Shown piece after piece: positions 22,989 through 30,261 of a stretch of 64,000 bases of DNA. Location: the NCBI RefSeq assembly GCF_029360645.1, contig NZ_JARDUA010000003.1, positions 124,001 through 188,000 of the forward strand. The letters are read 5' to 3'. Made by a program: the position numbers and the translations under genes. Position 1 is the first letter of the stretch. Each line of letters begins with the position of its first letter. The DNA is from Pontibacter litorisediminis (GTDB lineage Bacteria > Bacteroidota > Bacteroidia > Cytophagales > Hymenobacteraceae). The notes under the pieces are model-generated. The model was not told the origin of the DNA, did not search any database, and saw only the letters and a list, made by a program, of their open reading frames with translations.

Positions 22989-23040
22989 CTATAAAGTATA
23001 AGCCCGAAGCTTTTCCTGCTTCGGGCTTATACTTTATAGC
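22988..23040. terminator. bidirectional terminator overlapping both convergent gene ends
   Basis: A perfect 23-bp stem (22988-23010 with 23018-23040) around TTTTCCT includes the last base of the upstream stop and the last codons of the convergent radical SAM gene. Each arm carries one AAGTATA copy. Confidence 0.88.
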
Positions 23041-25241
23041 AACAACAGGCCCCGCTCCCTTAGGTCAAACCAGCTCGGTGAGCTTAGGAACTCAGCAAAA
23101 CTCAGGTGCGCCTCCGCCGGGAAACTCGCCTCCAGCTGCTTCAGAGTTACAGCTTCCGGATTATCGGGCGTTACTTTCTGCAGCACCTCGAACAGCCACT
23201 GGCCGATGATGGCGGTGGTCTTCACCTCAAAATCCTCGCCTTTCTCAAAGAAGGTAAGCAGGCAGCGTTCGATGGTCTGCCCTTTCTGAGCAATCATGGT
23301 AAAGTCCAGGGCCGGGGTATTGCCCAGCCACAGTACGCGCGCGTTGGGGCGGGTGCTGTCGGGGCGGTGTGGGGCAGCGATAGCCTCGGCAATCAGGTTC
23401 GGGTCTTCTGTGGCGCGGGGCACTTTAAAATCAAACCAGAACGAGAGCTTCTCCTCCAGGCCAATGCCGTGCATGTAGTTGTAAAGCGCCTTCGCCAGTC
23501 CCTCGCCAAACATGCTGTGGTCGGTGCCTTTCGGGTCGTCGTGCCAAAGGTCGTTGTTGGCAAAATCCCCTTCGGGCGGACCAACCTTCACCACGCCATA
23601 CTTCTCGGGGTTCTTGCCGATGGGGCTGTGCGCCGTCATGCTGAAGCGGTGCCAGTAACCTGACTGGATCACGTTGTTGAGGAACAGCTGCCGCACCACC
23701 TCCAGCGAGTCAATCGTTTCCTGAGCCGTTTGGGTTGGGAAGCCATACATGAGGTAGGCATGCACCATGATACCGGCCTGCGTAAAGCTATCCGTCACGC
23801 GGGCTACCTGCGCTATGCTAACGCCTTTTTCCATGAGAGCCAGCAAGCGGTCAGAAGCTACCTCCAAACCACCCGACACGGCAATACAGCCCGAGGCAGC
23901 CAGCAGGCGGCACAGGTCTGGCGTAAAGGTTTTCTCAAAGCGGATGTTCCCCCACCAGCTTATTTTCACGCCACGGCGAATAAGTTCGATGGCCATGTCG
24001 CGGAGCGGGGCAGGCGGGGCCGCCTCGTCTACAAAGTGAAAGCCGGTCTGCCCGGTCTGGGCAATAATCTGCTCGATGCGGTCTACCAGCAGGGTGGCGG
24101 GGGCCACATCGTAGCGGTTGATGTAATCCAGGGTGATGTCGCAGAAGGAGCAGCGCTTCCAGTAGCAGCCGTGGGCGATGGTGAGCTTGTTCCAGCGGCC
24201 ATCGCTCCAGAGGCGGTGCATGGGGTTGATCACATCGATCACCGAGAGGTAATCGGGTAAAGGCAAATCGCTGTAATCGGGCGTGCCTACCTCGTTGTGC
24301 GGAATGTCGGCATCGGTGCAGCCATTGACATACTTCACCTCGCCATCGGCAAGTAAAAAAGTGCGCTGCAGCTGCCCAGTCTCGCGCTCGCCCTGCAGGT
24401 GCTCCAGCAGTCTCAGCCACGGGCCTTCGCCATCATCCAGCGTCACGAAATCAATGTACTTAAACAGGCGCGGCTCGCGCAGGCTGCGCAGTTCCGTGTT
24501 CGGGTAACCGCCGCCCATGGCTGTCCTTATACCTGGGTTATGCTCTTTGATATACTTTGCCATCCGCAGGCCGCCGTACAGGTTGCCCGGGAAAGGGATA
24601 GAGAAGCCCACCACATCCGGCTGTACCTGCTGCAGGCGCTCCTCCAACAGCTCCAGTAACATAAGGTCCACGAGGCTTGGGGCCTGCTGCAGGGCCTCCT
24701 CCAGTGGGTTGAACGAGGTGGCCGACAAGGCCAGTTTTTCGGCGTAGCGGCTAAAGGCAAAGTAGGGCGAAATAGTTTCCTTGATCAGGTCGCCGAGGTC
24801 CTCTAAGTATAAAGTAGCCAGGTAGCGTGCCCTGTCGGTGATGCCCATACTTCCGAAGGCCCAGTCGATGTCCTCCACCTGATCGAAGCGCGAAGCCTCG
24901 GGCAGAAAGCGGCTGTAGCTGATCTGCTGCGCCAGTGTGTGGTCCTTGTTCTGCAGAAAGCGGATGACCGGCTCTATGGTGTTCAGGTAGTCGCGCTTAA
25001 GGTGCAGGATGCGCAGGCTGTTGTCCGAGAGTTCGTAATTGCCCTGCTCTATGGCCTCAAAGATGCGCTGGAGCCCTTTGCGGGAGAACATGCGCAGCAC
25101 CAATTCAATGCCCAGATCGGCCTGCACCACCTCGTAGCCACGGCCGGTTAAAAAGCCTTTCAGGTAGGCGGTGGCAGGGTAAGGGGTGTTCAGTTGCGTG
25201 AGCGGCGGCGTAATGAGCAGGATGGTTGGCTTCTTCTCCAA
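23034..25241 (-). CDS. B12-binding-domain radical SAM protein
   Basis: This 735-residue enzyme has an N-terminal cobalamin-binding-like Rossmann domain (about 1-290, opening ILLITPPLTQLNTPYPATAY, with DVVGFSIPFPGN and the MGGGYPNTELR turn) and a radical SAM core from about 350. The cluster motif is C359-x4-C364-x2-C367 (HGCYWKRCSFCD), one residue longer than the canonical CX3CX2C. Later segments include GGLEVASDRLLALMEKGV and MVHAYLMYGFPTQT, typical of the B12-radical SAM/Elp3-like core. The C-terminal 200 residues are family-specific. The substrate is unknown; members are often methyltransferases or rearrangement enzymes. A TACTTTTG -7-like box lies at 25289-25296 on the minus strand. Confidence 0.88.
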   Translation of the reverse strand: MEKKPTILLITPPLTQLNTPYPATAYLKGFLTGRGYEVVQADLGIELVLRMFSRKGLQRIFEAIEQGNYELSDNSLRILHLKRDYLNTIEPVIRFLQNKDHTLAQQISYSRFLPEASRFDQVEDIDWAFGSMGITDRARYLATLYLEDLGDLIKETISPYFAFSRYAEKLALSATSFNPLEEALQQAPSLVDLMLLELLEERLQQVQPDVVGFSIPFPGNLYGGLRMAKYIKEHNPGIRTAMGGGYPNTELRSLREPRLFKYIDFVTLDDGEGPWLRLLEHLQGERETGQLQRTFLLADGEVKYVNGCTDADIPHNEVGTPDYSDLPLPDYLSVIDVINPMHRLWSDGRWNKLTIAHGCYWKRCSFCDITLDYINRYDVAPATLLVDRIEQIIAQTGQTGFHFVDEAAPPAPLRDMAIELIRRGVKISWWGNIRFEKTFTPDLCRLLAASGCIAVSGGLEVASDRLLALMEKGVSIAQVARVTDSFTQAGIMVHAYLMYGFPTQTAQETIDSLEVVRQLFLNNVIQSGYWHRFSMTAHSPIGKNPEKYGVVKVGPPEGDFANNDLWHDDPKGTDHSMFGEGLAKALYNYMHGIGLEEKLSFWFDFKVPRATEDPNLIAEAIAAPHRPDSTRPNARVLWLGNTPALDFTMIAQKGQTIERCLLTFFEKGEDFEVKTTAIIGQWLFEVLQKVTPDNPEAVTLKQLEASFPAEAHLSFAEFLSSPSWFDLRERGLLLL

Positions 25242-26853: not shown

Positions 26854-26903
26854 AAAACAGGAAAGCCTGCCCCATGTAAGTATAGGGCAGGCTTTCCTGT
26901 TTT
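26854..26903. terminator. bidirectional terminator between the acidic lipoprotein and BtuG-like genes
   Basis: A perfect 19-bp stem (26854-26872 with 26885-26903) with A- and T-runs at its ends has a loop containing one AAGTATA copy. Confidence 0.9.
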
Positions 26904-26917
26904 CAAATGCCTCTCGT

Positions 26918-28009
26918 TTAGTTAAACACAAAGCCATTCGGGCCGATGCCAGCCCTGAAGCTGCCTATCTGGTTGCCCTGTGGGTTGTAGATGTACACCG
27001 TGCCGTCACCGTCAAAACTGTTCTCATCGCCGCCGTAGATGTTGCCTGTCTCAGGGTCTACGCCCAAGCCGTAAAAGCTGCGGTTGATGAGCGGCGTGGT
27101 ATTTAGCGCAGTGGCGTTGATGTCTTGCTGGTGCACGGCGCCATTGTAAAGGAAGTACAGCATATCCTTATTGCCGTTGATGAGTAACTTGCTCGCCGAG
27201 GCGGTGGCCTCTGGGAAGGTGATCGTGCTCGTAACGGTGTTGTTGGCGATGTTGATCTTAGAAAGAGCGCCTGCCGTGTGCTCAGATGCCGGTGCGTTCC
27301 AGTCTTTATAACCCGAGCTTAGCACCCACAGGTTATTGTTGCGGTCTAGTGCCAGGCTGTTGGGGCCGTGGGTAACCTCGATCGTCTTCACCACCATGTC
27401 ATTGTTCGTATCAATAACGTGCACAAGCGGAGTACCTGAATTGGCTACATACAAGTTGCCGCCTGCTAGCAGCAGCTGCTCAGGTTGCACATCCACCTCA
27501 ATCGTTTTAACTACTTTATACGTTTTTAGGTCGATAACTGAAACGCGCCCTCTGTTGTAAGACCAGTCTGCATTAGGAGGAAACCACTCTGTAACGTAGC
27601 CTTTCTCGTTGTTGAGGGCCACAAAGTAGCGGGGAGCGCTCAGGCCTTCCACCACACCCACAGATTTGAAAGTAGCGGCATTCACGACCTCAATCTTGTT
27701 GCTGTTGTTCATCACGATGAAGGCGCGGTTGCCGGCCAATTCCATGTCCTGCACCACATCGCCAAGCAACCGCCCATCGTTTTCTTTTTGAAAAACATTT
27801 TGCTGCGCCTGTTCTGTGCTGTTGCTGTAAAAAGAGATAGAAGCATTCGACTCCCTGAAGTTCCCTTCGTTCAGGACGAATACACCGTCTTCGGCATAGG
27901 CGCCGCTTGGCCCGTCGCTGTCATTGCTGTCGCAGCTGGTGAAGGCAAGGGAGCTGACGGCCAGGGTGGCAGCCAGGAAGAAGCTACGGAAATAGTTGCG
28001 TTTTTTCAT
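26918..28009 (-). CDS. beta-propeller surface lipoprotein, BtuG-like (YncE/DUF5074 type)
   Basis: This 363-residue lipoprotein has a signal peptide ending AFTSC, then DSNDSDG, an Asp-rich stretch of the kind that directs Bacteroidota lipoproteins to the cell surface. The body is a seven-bladed YncE/DUF5074-like propeller with repeats such as NKIEVVNAATFKSVGVVEG, RVSVIDLKTYKVVKTIEV and PLVHVIDTNNDMVVKTIEV. It lies 23 bp downstream of the BtuB-like receptor and behind a cobalamin riboswitch. In Bacteroides, BtuG is a surface beta-propeller that captures vitamin B12 and hands it to BtuB. Position and fold together suggest the same job here; sequence homology to BtuG itself is not shown. Confidence 0.82.
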   Translation of the reverse strand: MKKRNYFRSFFLAATLAVSSLAFTSCDSNDSDGPSGAYAEDGVFVLNEGNFRESNASISFYSNSTEQAQQNVFQKENDGRLLGDVVQDMELAGNRAFIVMNNSNKIEVVNAATFKSVGVVEGLSAPRYFVALNNEKGYVTEWFPPNADWSYNRGRVSVIDLKTYKVVKTIEVDVQPEQLLLAGGNLYVANSGTPLVHVIDTNNDMVVKTIEVTHGPNSLALDRNNNLWVLSSGYKDWNAPASEHTAGALSKINIANNTVTSTITFPEATASASKLLINGNKDMLYFLYNGAVHQQDINATALNTTPLINRSFYGLGVDPETGNIYGGDENSFDGDGTVYIYNPQGNQIGSFRAGIGPNGFVFN

Positions 28010-28032
28010 TATGGTTTAGGTATGAGTATAAA

Positions 28033-29949
28033 TTAAGGGATAATAAAGCGTAAGCTGAAGGTATAGCCGCGCGGCGGCATAGGGCGGTAAGCCATGGTCT
28101 GGTACTCGGCATTGGTCACATTATCGGAGCGGAGCGTGAGCAGCAAGGTGTTTTGCCCCAGCTGCAGCCTTCGGCTCAGGGCCAGGTGCAGCAATATAAA
28201 GTCGTCGAGGTGGCTGGTTTCGGAGTTGGAAGTATAGCGCAGGCCGGTGTAGTTCAGGTTGCCCAGCAGGCTCCAGCTTTTATACTTGCCCTCCGCCGAA
28301 AGTATGGCCTTGTGACGCGGCACATACATCAGCTGCTTGCCCAGGTCGCCTGTTCCTTCATACACCTTTACCTGCTCCGACGAAGTATAAGTATAGGCCG
28401 CCGTGCTAATCAGTTTTACTTCCCCTAGCTTGGCGGTGGCGGTGGTACTCAGCTCCAGCCCTTTGCTTTCCACCTTCTGCAGGTTGGTGGGGCGCCAGAG
28501 GCCGGTACGGTTCGGCGACCACTGTATCCAGTTATCAATCTGCATGAGATAGCCAGTGGCCTCGGTCTCTAACAAGAAGCTGTTGTCCTGTACCAGCACG
28601 TGGCGCAGGCCCAGCTCGTAGTTCCAGCCGTGCTCCGGCTTTAGGTCTGGGTTGCCGGCACCTGCCCAAAAGCGGTCGTTGAGCGTTGGTACGCGGTAGC
28701 TGCCGCTGGCATTGCCTTTCAGGGATACCTGGTGCCGGTTGCTGTTGAAAAACTTCCAGTTAAAGCCCAGCGCTGGCGTAAGCGGCGGGTTATAATGCTC
28801 TACCAGCGCCTGGCGCAGGTTCAGCGACAGCTGCAGCGGCTGCACCGGGTCGAAGCGGAAGAGGGCAAAAAGCGCGGCGCGGTTCTCGTCCTGCTGCCCG
28901 TTGTAGCCGTCGTTTGTCGCCTCGAAGCGCTGCAGGTTAAGGCCACCGCGCAGACTCCAGCGCTCGCCGGAAGTATAGGTTTGCTCCGCCTGTAGCTGGT
29001 AGGTGTTTACATCCGCTACGGAGTTGTTGCTGCGGTCGGTGTAGTGCAGCAGGTCGTTGAACCAGGCGGCTTTTATACTTGTCTGCCCCAGCCGGCTCTC
29101 GTGCTCCAGCTCTGCCATGAGGCGCAAGTTTTCGTCTTTTTGCTTCGCCTCAGTGTCGGCGGAGCCCATGGCAGGCGGCAGTTCGCGGTCTGAGAACGTG
29201 TACCAGCCATGCAGGGCCAGCGCCGTTTTCGGGGAGAGTTGCCAGCGCAGGTCCTGAGTAAGGCCATGCTGCTCCAGCTGCGCGTGCTGTAGTCGCACTT
29301 CCGGGGTGCCGAAGCGGCTAAGGTCATTATACGTAAAGCTGTTTTCTGCCTGATGCCGGTAGAGACTGAGGCCGTAGCTGAAGTTTTTGCTGCTATAGCC
29401 AGCGCTGCCGCTGCCAAAGTAACGGCCAAAGCTGCCAGCCTCCAGTTTCACATCGGCCCCAAAGCCCTGGGTTTTATACTTGGGAGAGTTTAGCAGTACC
29501 GCCCCGCCAATGGCCCCGCTGCCGTAGGTCGCCGCTGCCGAGCCATATTGCAGGGCCACCTCACCGATGCCGCTCAAAGGTAGGGTAGAGAAGTCGGCCT
29601 GGCCCAGGGTGGGGGAACCGATGTTTAAGCCATTCCAGAGCACGGCTGTTTGTGAGGCGTTGGTACCCCGGAAAGCTACCGTAGAACTTCCGCTGGCCCC
29701 GTAGGTTTTGAGGTATACGGGCGTGCGGGCCTGCAGCGCCTCGGCCAGGGTGCCGGAACTGTAGGTGCTCAGGTAGGCGCTGTCCACCTGCACCACGCGG
29801 CTGCCGGCAGCATACACCTCGGCAGGCTTGCCAAACACCTCCACGGTGCGCAACTGGTGCTGCGTGGTGTCCTGCTGCGCCATAGCCACAGAAGCCGTGC
29901 TGCACAGGCAGGCACAGAGCCATACTTTCAGAAAAGAGAATTTTGCCAA
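28033..29949 (-). CDS. btuB: TonB-dependent receptor, vitamin B12 type (BtuB-like)
   Basis: This 638-residue outer-membrane receptor starts at TTG 29949, giving a signal peptide (MAKFSFLKVWLCACLCSTAS, ending AMAQ). The plug domain follows with TLAEALQARTPVYLKTYGAS, VAFRGTNASQTAVLWNGLNI and the typical YGSGAIGGAVLL, then a 22-strand barrel with YTFSDRELPP- and YELGLRHVLV-like strands and an aromatic C-terminal strand (YTFSLRFIIP). The cobalamin riboswitch in the leader makes vitamin B12 the expected substrate, imported with TonB energy. The BtuG-like lipoprotein follows in the operon. No BtuFCD genes are in the window. Several AAGTATA copies fall inside the gene. Confidence 0.9.
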   Translation of the reverse strand: MAKFSFLKVWLCACLCSTASVAMAQQDTTQHQLRTVEVFGKPAEVYAAGSRVVQVDSAYLSTYSSGTLAEALQARTPVYLKTYGASGSSTVAFRGTNASQTAVLWNGLNIGSPTLGQADFSTLPLSGIGEVALQYGSAAATYGSGAIGGAVLLNSPKYKTQGFGADVKLEAGSFGRYFGSGSAGYSSKNFSYGLSLYRHQAENSFTYNDLSRFGTPEVRLQHAQLEQHGLTQDLRWQLSPKTALALHGWYTFSDRELPPAMGSADTEAKQKDENLRLMAELEHESRLGQTSIKAAWFNDLLHYTDRSNNSVADVNTYQLQAEQTYTSGERWSLRGGLNLQRFEATNDGYNGQQDENRAALFALFRFDPVQPLQLSLNLRQALVEHYNPPLTPALGFNWKFFNSNRHQVSLKGNASGSYRVPTLNDRFWAGAGNPDLKPEHGWNYELGLRHVLVQDNSFLLETEATGYLMQIDNWIQWSPNRTGLWRPTNLQKVESKGLELSTTATAKLGEVKLISTAAYTYTSSEQVKVYEGTGDLGKQLMYVPRHKAILSAEGKYKSWSLLGNLNYTGLRYTSNSETSHLDDFILLHLALSRRLQLGQNTLLLTLRSDNVTNAEYQTMAYRPMPPRGYTFSLRFIIP

Positions 29950-30069
29950 AATAAACGTTGCTTACATCCCGAAGCATGCTATTGGGGCAAAGGCAGGAAC
30001 AGCAAACGCATGAAATACAGCGGCGGCCGTGCAGCTTTTTACCCGAAAGCATACGACAAATCGTGTGTC

Positions 30070-30250
30070 GGACTGGCAGGTCTCCTGGCTCTCTTCAGTT
30101 AGCGCGCCTTCCCATGCAGCGTGTGCAGCACAGTGGCTAAGGTGTTGGCTAACCCTTTTGTTGAAGATGACAGTTGCGGGAACAGCGCAGGACTCACACC
30201 TGCTTCCCTTTTAAGGCCATAAAACGGCAGTTTTACAGCCACCAATCTGA
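30070..30250 (-). ncRNA. cobalamin riboswitch
   Basis: The minus strand carries the conserved core of the cobalamin aptamer: AAAAGGGAAGCAGGTGTGAG, then GAGTCCTGCGCTGTTCCCGC and AACTGT, TAGCCACTG, GGGAAGGC, and the B12 box AGCCAGGAGACCTGCC (30075-30090). It ends about 120 nt before the TTG start of the BtuB-like receptor. Binding of adenosylcobalamin should lower receptor expression; the expression platform probably lies at 29950-30070, but I could not fold it. Confidence 0.95.
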
Positions 30251-30253
30251 GGG

Positions 30254-30261
30254 CAAAGGTA
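30254..30261 (-). promoter_or_regulatory. candidate -7 box for the riboswitch-btuB transcript (TACCTTTG)
   Basis: On the minus strand TACCTTTG matches TAnnTTTG and puts the transcript start near 30247, directly at the 5' edge of the aptamer. The -33 element is weak. Confidence 0.5.

Follow-up and report, generated by a model that had tools for sequence, protein, structure and literature searches.

We analyzed a 64,000-nucleotide stretch of the Pontibacter litorisediminis genome (hereafter the window; RefSeq assembly GCF_029360645.1, contig NZ_JARDUA010000003.1, positions 124,001 to 188,000), the minus strand of which encodes, in 5' to 3' order, a cobalamin riboswitch, a TonB-dependent receptor (btuB) and a beta-propeller lipoprotein (btuG). 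This locus is very probably a BtuBG operon, homologous to the vitamin B12 uptake system of Bacteroides though divergent from it, in a Pontibacter-like B12 user that is probably unable to synthesise the vitamin. The evidence comes from the gene order and the riboswitch, the homology of both proteins, the predicted fold of the lipoprotein, the linkage of the two genes in relatives and the B12-dependent enzymes that can be recognised by sequence in the host genome. The elements of the operon are the following:

30058-30261, minus strand: cobalamin riboswitch aptamer (RF00174), leader of the operon; 96.9 bits, gathering score 31.5
28033-29949, minus strand: btuB, TonB-dependent corrinoid receptor, 638 amino acids, TTG start; open reading frame (ORF) with Plug and barrel domains, named from its closest solved relatives
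28471-28530, minus strand: EL8-like loop WIQWSPNRTGLWRPTNLQKV, btuB codons 474-493, in which Trp485 aligns with BtuB3 Tyr538; from alignment
26918-28009, minus strand: btuG, lipoprotein beta-propeller, 363 amino acids; PF16819, BtuG2/BtuG3 matches, structure model
27932-27943, minus strand: lipobox FTSC, btuG codons 23-26, predicted lipidation at Cys26; sequence only
27839-27871, minus strand: NEGNFRESNAS, btuG codons 47-57, counterpart of the BtuG2 Asn54-Thr64 loop; from alignment to BtuG2

The riboswitch match spans the full RF00174 model (positions 1-189 of 189, E 6.5e-23), and its alignment displays the B12 box GAGCCAGGAGACCUGCC. Since the score lies far above the threshold and all 60 genomes sampled from the host family contain at least one cobalamin riboswitch, the element is no chance feature. 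The stretch between the aptamer and the btuB start showed no RNA folding signal (z 0.19), and no expression platform is therefore claimed. The two genes are separated by 23 bp (28010-28032), and no btuF, btuC, btuD or further lipoprotein gene was seen behind btuG. An earlier note on this DNA, made from the sequence alone, had described this same layout of a riboswitch with its B12 box before a TonB receptor and a propeller lipoprotein 23 bp further on, and had proposed a BtuG-like capture lipoprotein beside a riboswitch-led BtuB; the layout and the identities are borne out by the results below, and capture itself would be the role of the lipoprotein by analogy with Bacteroides.

Relationship of the lipoprotein to Bacteroides BtuG

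The btuG product matches PF16819 (DUF5074) at 106.1 bits (cut-off 27.2), as do residues 44-364 of Bacteroides thetaiotaomicron BtuG2 (74.6 bits). A phmmer search of the PDB returned as best matches BtuG2, the B. uniformis protein 3dsm and BtuG3, with E-values from 2.4e-44 to 2.4e-39 (8bmx, E 2.4e-44, for BtuG2; 8okv, E 1.9e-39, for BtuG3), followed by BtuG1 (E 1e-15 to 7e-15) and an archaeal surface-layer propeller (E 8e-11). Matches to BtuK1 (E 2e-4, residues 42-141 only) and to E. coli YncE (3vgz; E 4e-4, residues 89-189 only) were weak and partial. Identity to BtuG2 amounts to 34% (105 of 307 aligned residues), and the length of 363 amino acids compares with 366 for the BtuG2 chain 8bmx_D, which contradicts the earlier description of the protein as shorter than BtuG.

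An AlphaFold2 model of the btuG product, built from the window protein and 39 relatives, had a mean predicted local distance difference test score (pLDDT) of 92.5 and a predicted template modelling score (pTM) of 0.86. Foldseek searches with this model placed BtuG chains at all of ranks 1-16. In VIA-align superpositions the model matched BtuG2 (8bmz_A) with Z 42.9 over 314 aligned residues at a root-mean-square deviation of 2.0, and BtuG1 with Z 37.0 (8blw) and 36.9; BtuK1 (9s6c) reached Z 31.1 at 19% identity, and the best protein that does not bind B12, the archaeal 1l0q, reached Z 32.6. Structure prediction against BtuG, which the earlier note had put forward as a check, is thus in agreement with the sequence matches.

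The lipobox pattern recurs in 116 of 122 btuB-linked BtuG proteins. In the window protein the cysteine opens an acid-rich segment (CDSNDSDG), and Asp at position +2 is found in 55 of the 116 relatives with a lipobox; by analogy with Bacteroides, the protein would be exposed at the cell surface. On a plain reading of sequence and model, the lipoprotein propeller is a divergent homologue of Bacteroides BtuG and not a convergent protein.

Relationship of the receptor to Bacteroides BtuB

The btuB product begins with what reads as a signal peptide. Its closest solved relatives are BtuB3 (8p97/8p98) and the BtuB2 receptor 8bmx_C (E about 1e-59), compared to E 4e-18 for BtuB1 and 4e-7 for E. coli BtuB. 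The PDB entry 8bmx holds both receptor and lipoprotein, whereas PMC10404256 assigns 8BMX to BtuG2 alone; the PDB chains are followed here. The same text reports that the EL8 loop and Tyr538 of BtuB3 act in the release of B12 from BtuG, and that BtuB1 has Trp and BtuB2 Phe (PMC10404256). Across 118 receptors (the one in the window and 117 relatives), the column of Trp485 holds an aromatic residue (Phe, Tyr or Trp) in 103. With its plug and TonB barrel nearest to those of BtuB2/BtuB3 and its EL8 aromatic residue, the receptor is, as judged from its sequence, a Bacteroides-type BtuB. Taken together, the position of BtuG2/BtuG3 at the top of the listed solved proteins, the equal length of the propeller and the independent grouping of the receptor with Bacteroides BtuB argue for homology of both components.

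Conservation of the operon in relatives

With the window BtuG as query, 119 of the 146 genomes searched in the order gave matches (E 0.001 or lower), weak and partial ones among them. Sampling every second ranked match (rows 3-137) and row 2 yielded 67 loci of up to 15 kb, with rows 127 and 137 falling inside other sampled stretches. In 45 of the 67 loci btuG is preceded on its own strand by a gene for a BtuB relative, at a distance of 300 bp or less in 33. Nine others have no btuB upstream and carry a cobalamin riboswitch immediately before btuG or the operon that contains it (L053, L054, L056, L060, L062, L063, L074, L081 and L089, with a marginal riboswitch of 33.5 bits in L053), and contig ends truncate two more (L078, L085). 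A set of 80 named loci consists of best matches and is hence biased to close relatives; here btuB is upstream in 77 and within 300 bp in 72; the exceptions are L187, which begins at a contig end, and L192 and L195, with no btuB in the 2.4 and 1.8 kb examined. A lipoprotein occurring mainly away from btuB, which the earlier note had named as an outcome that would refute its proposal, is not what these samples contain.

Riboswitches were counted at btuB loci with at least 400 bp of upstream sequence. A same-strand riboswitch precedes btuB in all 72 such named loci (64 by a B12-box script, 8 by Rfam) and in all 43 such order loci (33 by the script, 9 by Rfam and L035 from the family riboswitch scan), at spacings reaching about 4 kb in a few loci. 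The script recovered 30 of 30 known family riboswitches and missed 18 of the 115 btuB loci, which were resolved separately, nearly all by Rfam.

Several loci showed other arrangements. L053, L054, L056, L060, L062, L063, L074 and L081 present a riboswitch-led btuG with no btuB in the stretch examined. DUF4465 proteins, reported as a BtuJ-type B12-binding family in PMC13398666, lie between btuB and btuG at L048:5299-6996, L055:2830-4470 and L065:9032-10006, and bear a type IX secretion system sorting tail, that of L065 being below the cut-off. A BtuG-like gene in a 1.6-Mb genome (L101:5080-6202) directly follows a SAM-I/IV riboswitch (44.7 bits, threshold 41.1), and four genomes of family f2 (L082, L087, L088, L092) carry a second DUF5074-type homologue with no riboswitch or btuB in 15 kb. 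In a same-genus genome without a BtuG match (G137, L271:1717-4032), a riboswitch precedes a 723-residue TonB receptor only distantly like the window BtuB (E 5e-14), perhaps another type of B12 receptor within one genus. A further riboswitch target in the family encodes a CobT-type phosphoribosyltransferase (L118:1692-2996; PF02277, 441 bits). Four matches in open frames of 966-1008 amino acids were considered as natural BtuB-BtuG fusions; the three frames read (L302, L304 and L305, the fourth match being L303) each prove to be two separate genes that share a reading frame and are divided by a stop codon, and the fusion was rejected.

B12 use and supply in the host genome

The nearest named relatives of the window BtuG, in a list that may leave out the window's own record, are from Pontibacter, with the P. 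mangrovi protein 85% identical. The host genome encodes one BtuG and one BtuB and contains two cobalamin riboswitches. It also encodes MetH, together with a methylmalonyl-CoA-mutase-like protein and a fused B12-binding/GTPase mutase, both predicted to bind B12. A BtuC homologue (300.8 bits) with a BtuF-like neighbour is encoded elsewhere, and neither of the two riboswitches was found at BtuC. A search for CbiC, a corrin-pathway enzyme, found nothing in the host genome, while 7 of 14 control genomes gave matches; judging from this single pathway marker, the host appears to scavenge B12 and probably cannot make it.

Ligand pocket and alternative explanations

Several observations weigh against the assignment of the operon to B12 uptake. 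PF16819 also matches in 3 of 14 control genomes (two above the cut-off), E. coli and Methanosarcina among them, and 11 of the 67 order homologues have no B12 link within the stretch examined (up to 15 kb), so that membership in this family alone is no proof of B12 binding. The B12 receptor equivalog TIGR01779, although the best of 17 models for the btuB product, scores 112.8 bits, far below its cut-off of 599.7. The Asn54-Thr64 loop of BtuG2, described in PMC10404256 as one of two that grip the ligand like pliers, is well matched in the window protein (NEGNFQYSNAT in BtuG2, NEGNFRESNAS here); the Glu and Gly of its NEGNF core are, however, retained in 11 of 11 homologues unlinked to B12, and the core is therefore not diagnostic. 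Finally, Trp194, Tyr239 and Trp272, reported to line the BtuG2 pocket (PMC10404256), correspond to Ser191, a gap and Ser271 in the window BtuG. Elsewhere in the pocket, Tyr316 is kept as Tyr313 and Tyr335 is replaced by Phe332. From sequence resemblance and by analogy with Bacteroides, cobalamin would be the ligand of the window BtuG.

The replacement of the aromatic residues in the upper-ligand cavity could mean that the pair imports corrinoids with an altered preference, a variant that is compatible with a BtuBG operon and that we consider unlikely. Most of the 122 btuB-linked relatives likewise lack the three residues, as this variant would have it; few pocket positions were compared, however, and BtuG2 is reported to bind cobalamin and cobinamide alike (PMC6143338, PMC10404256).

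The earlier note had regarded the propeller as of a YncE-like kind and hence perhaps as a separate lineage or a convergent solution, and a YncE-type protein recruited independently to btuB would indeed account for the matches of the btuG product to YVTN-repeat and YncE models (TIGR02276, 51.7 bits, cut-off 27.85; NF052280, 45.3 bits). The latter score is far under the YncE equivalog cut-off of 400, the solved YncE is separated from BtuG2 and BtuG3 by more than thirty orders of magnitude in E-value, the best propeller that does not bind B12 falls ten Z units short of BtuG2, and the receptor too groups with Bacteroides BtuB. Independent recruitment is thus highly improbable, and sequence and model alike place the propeller with BtuG2/BtuG3. 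It is equally hard to credit that the pair imports a non-corrinoid such as a siderophore or haem, in the manner of the propeller lipoprotein XusB, as XusB chains do occur among the Foldseek matches, but only from rank 31 downwards (E 7e-11 at best), far outranked by BtuG, and a cobalamin riboswitch leads both the window operon and btuB in every scorable relative.

Proposed mechanism and comparison with known systems

If the BtuBG operon works as its Bacteroides counterparts do, low cellular cobalamin would lead the riboswitch to permit expression of btuB and btuG, with repression by B12 as the converse. The lipid-anchored BtuG would form a lid on BtuB at the cell surface, a mechanism described for the Bacteroides proteins in PMC10404256, and would capture external corrinoids and pass them to the receptor. 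The EL8-like loop of BtuB may then dislodge the ligand from BtuG, TonB energy would drive it into the periplasm, and the BtuF-like protein and BtuC would take it further inward.

The best sequence and structure matches to the window pair are B. thetaiotaomicron BtuB2-BtuG2 and BtuB3-BtuG3 (BT1954, BT2095), which, as far as described in PMC6143338 and PMC10404256, share with it the riboswitch, the adjacent btuB and btuG, a propeller lipoprotein equal in length and the EL8 aromatic residue. The window system differs from them in its 34% identity to BtuG2, the three replaced pocket aromatics, its single genomic copy, the absence of btuF, btuC, btuD or other lipoprotein genes behind btuG, and a host that is no gut Bacteroides. 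BtuB1-BtuG1 (8blw, 8ptd) of B. thetaiotaomicron has the same fold and role, with a more distant BtuG1 (663-residue chain in 8blw). BtuK1, titled a B12-binding protein in the PDB, shares the property of being a B12-binding propeller and is a far weaker match, and E. coli YncE shares a propeller with YVTN-like repeats.

BtuG is known from gut Bacteroides. According to PMC6143338, btuG is linked in 106 of 109 btuB operons of gut genomes, with homologues only in Bacteroidetes among 313 gut genomes, and its origin is related there to competition in the dense gut community and to capture of the vitamin from intrinsic factor. In Flavobacterium psychrophilum, a cobalamin riboswitch has been described upstream of an unnamed TonB receptor (PMC9723704), and BtuG2 has served as a tool in soil extracts (PMC11287211). 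Among the papers searched, our literature search found nothing joining BtuG, cobalamin and Cytophagales, nor Pontibacter and BtuG. The riboswitch-btuB-btuG order was found in Pontibacter, Hymenobacter and other Cytophagales, and a sample of 296 genomes from the phylum gave 131 with a match to the BtuG profile (E 1e-20 or lower), which suggests that BtuG-type B12 capture does not depend on a gut habitat. The operon is well supported as BtuBG, and the finding extends this known system with its mechanism unchanged, as a relative of it and not a new one.

A thioesterase gene behind a cobalamin riboswitch

The second riboswitch of the host genome precedes a 133-residue 4HBT acyl-CoA thioesterase (locus G000:C11:25552-26363), for which the nearest NCBIfam model is YciA (64.2 bits, cut-off 162). 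A thioesterase at 63% identity or more is present in 19 of 60 family genomes, and in 16 of these a cobalamin riboswitch lies 160-219 bp upstream on the same strand; the other three have no riboswitch within 1.5 kb, and none was found at any of 11 checked paralogues (34-37% identical). In the order, 58 of 146 genomes carry the thioesterase at E 1e-25 or better. Among 25 further order loci, two have their own riboswitch, five (L276, L280, L291, L292, L296), from other families of the order, place the gene between btuB and btuG, as does L084, and 18 show neither setting within about 1.5 kb.

These counts make the thioesterase a genuine, though patchily distributed, member of the B12 regulon, the regulatory link being shown by sequence, and possibly a new branch of it, a lead more novel than the BtuBG operon itself. 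We tentatively suggest, as a possible though doubtful scheme, that BtuBG and the YciA-like thioesterase form two arms of a B12-scarcity response, in which the enzyme, made when B12 is lacking, would hydrolyse propionyl- or methylmalonyl-CoA piled up by a cofactor-starved mutase; its substrate and purpose in this scheme are a guess. No report of a thioesterase under a B12 riboswitch was found in our literature search, and the word 'thioesterase' is absent from the main text of PMC3766115, although the link may still be published.

Neighbouring features

Two further features lie downstream of btuG:

23034-25241, minus strand: radical S-adenosylmethionine (SAM) ORF, 1.7 kb downstream of btuG; B12-binding domain 30.7 bits, just below the Pfam cut-off of 32.1
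26854-26903, both strands: perfect 19-bp inverted repeat flanked by T runs; read directly from sequence

The earlier note had placed a B12-dependent radical SAM enzyme within 5 kb; the ORF is there, with a weak B12-binding domain. Its best NCBIfam models, a C-methyltransferase of ribosomally synthesised and post-translationally modified peptides and the PhpK P-methyltransferase, all remain under their cut-offs. A small conserved gene on the opposite strand separates it from btuG. With loci spanning 5 kb on each side, so that neighbour counts are lower bounds, the radical SAM gene occurs near btuG in 14 of 14 Pontibacter loci and at least 32 of 66 other named loci, and a putative DNA glycosylase gene on the other side in 14 of 14 and at least 35 of 66. 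Proximity of the radical SAM gene was consequently rejected as evidence of B12 function, the glycosylase gene being conserved about equally, and no functional link to btuBG is claimed because shared gene order explains the proximity as well as function does. Across the 14 Pontibacter loci the radical SAM protein is syntenic and, at 82-94% identity, better conserved than BtuG there (50-85%).

The inverted repeat has a loop of 12, compared to a maximum of 8 in our inverted-repeat scan, which does not list it. It is probably a terminator shared by btuG and the converging gene.

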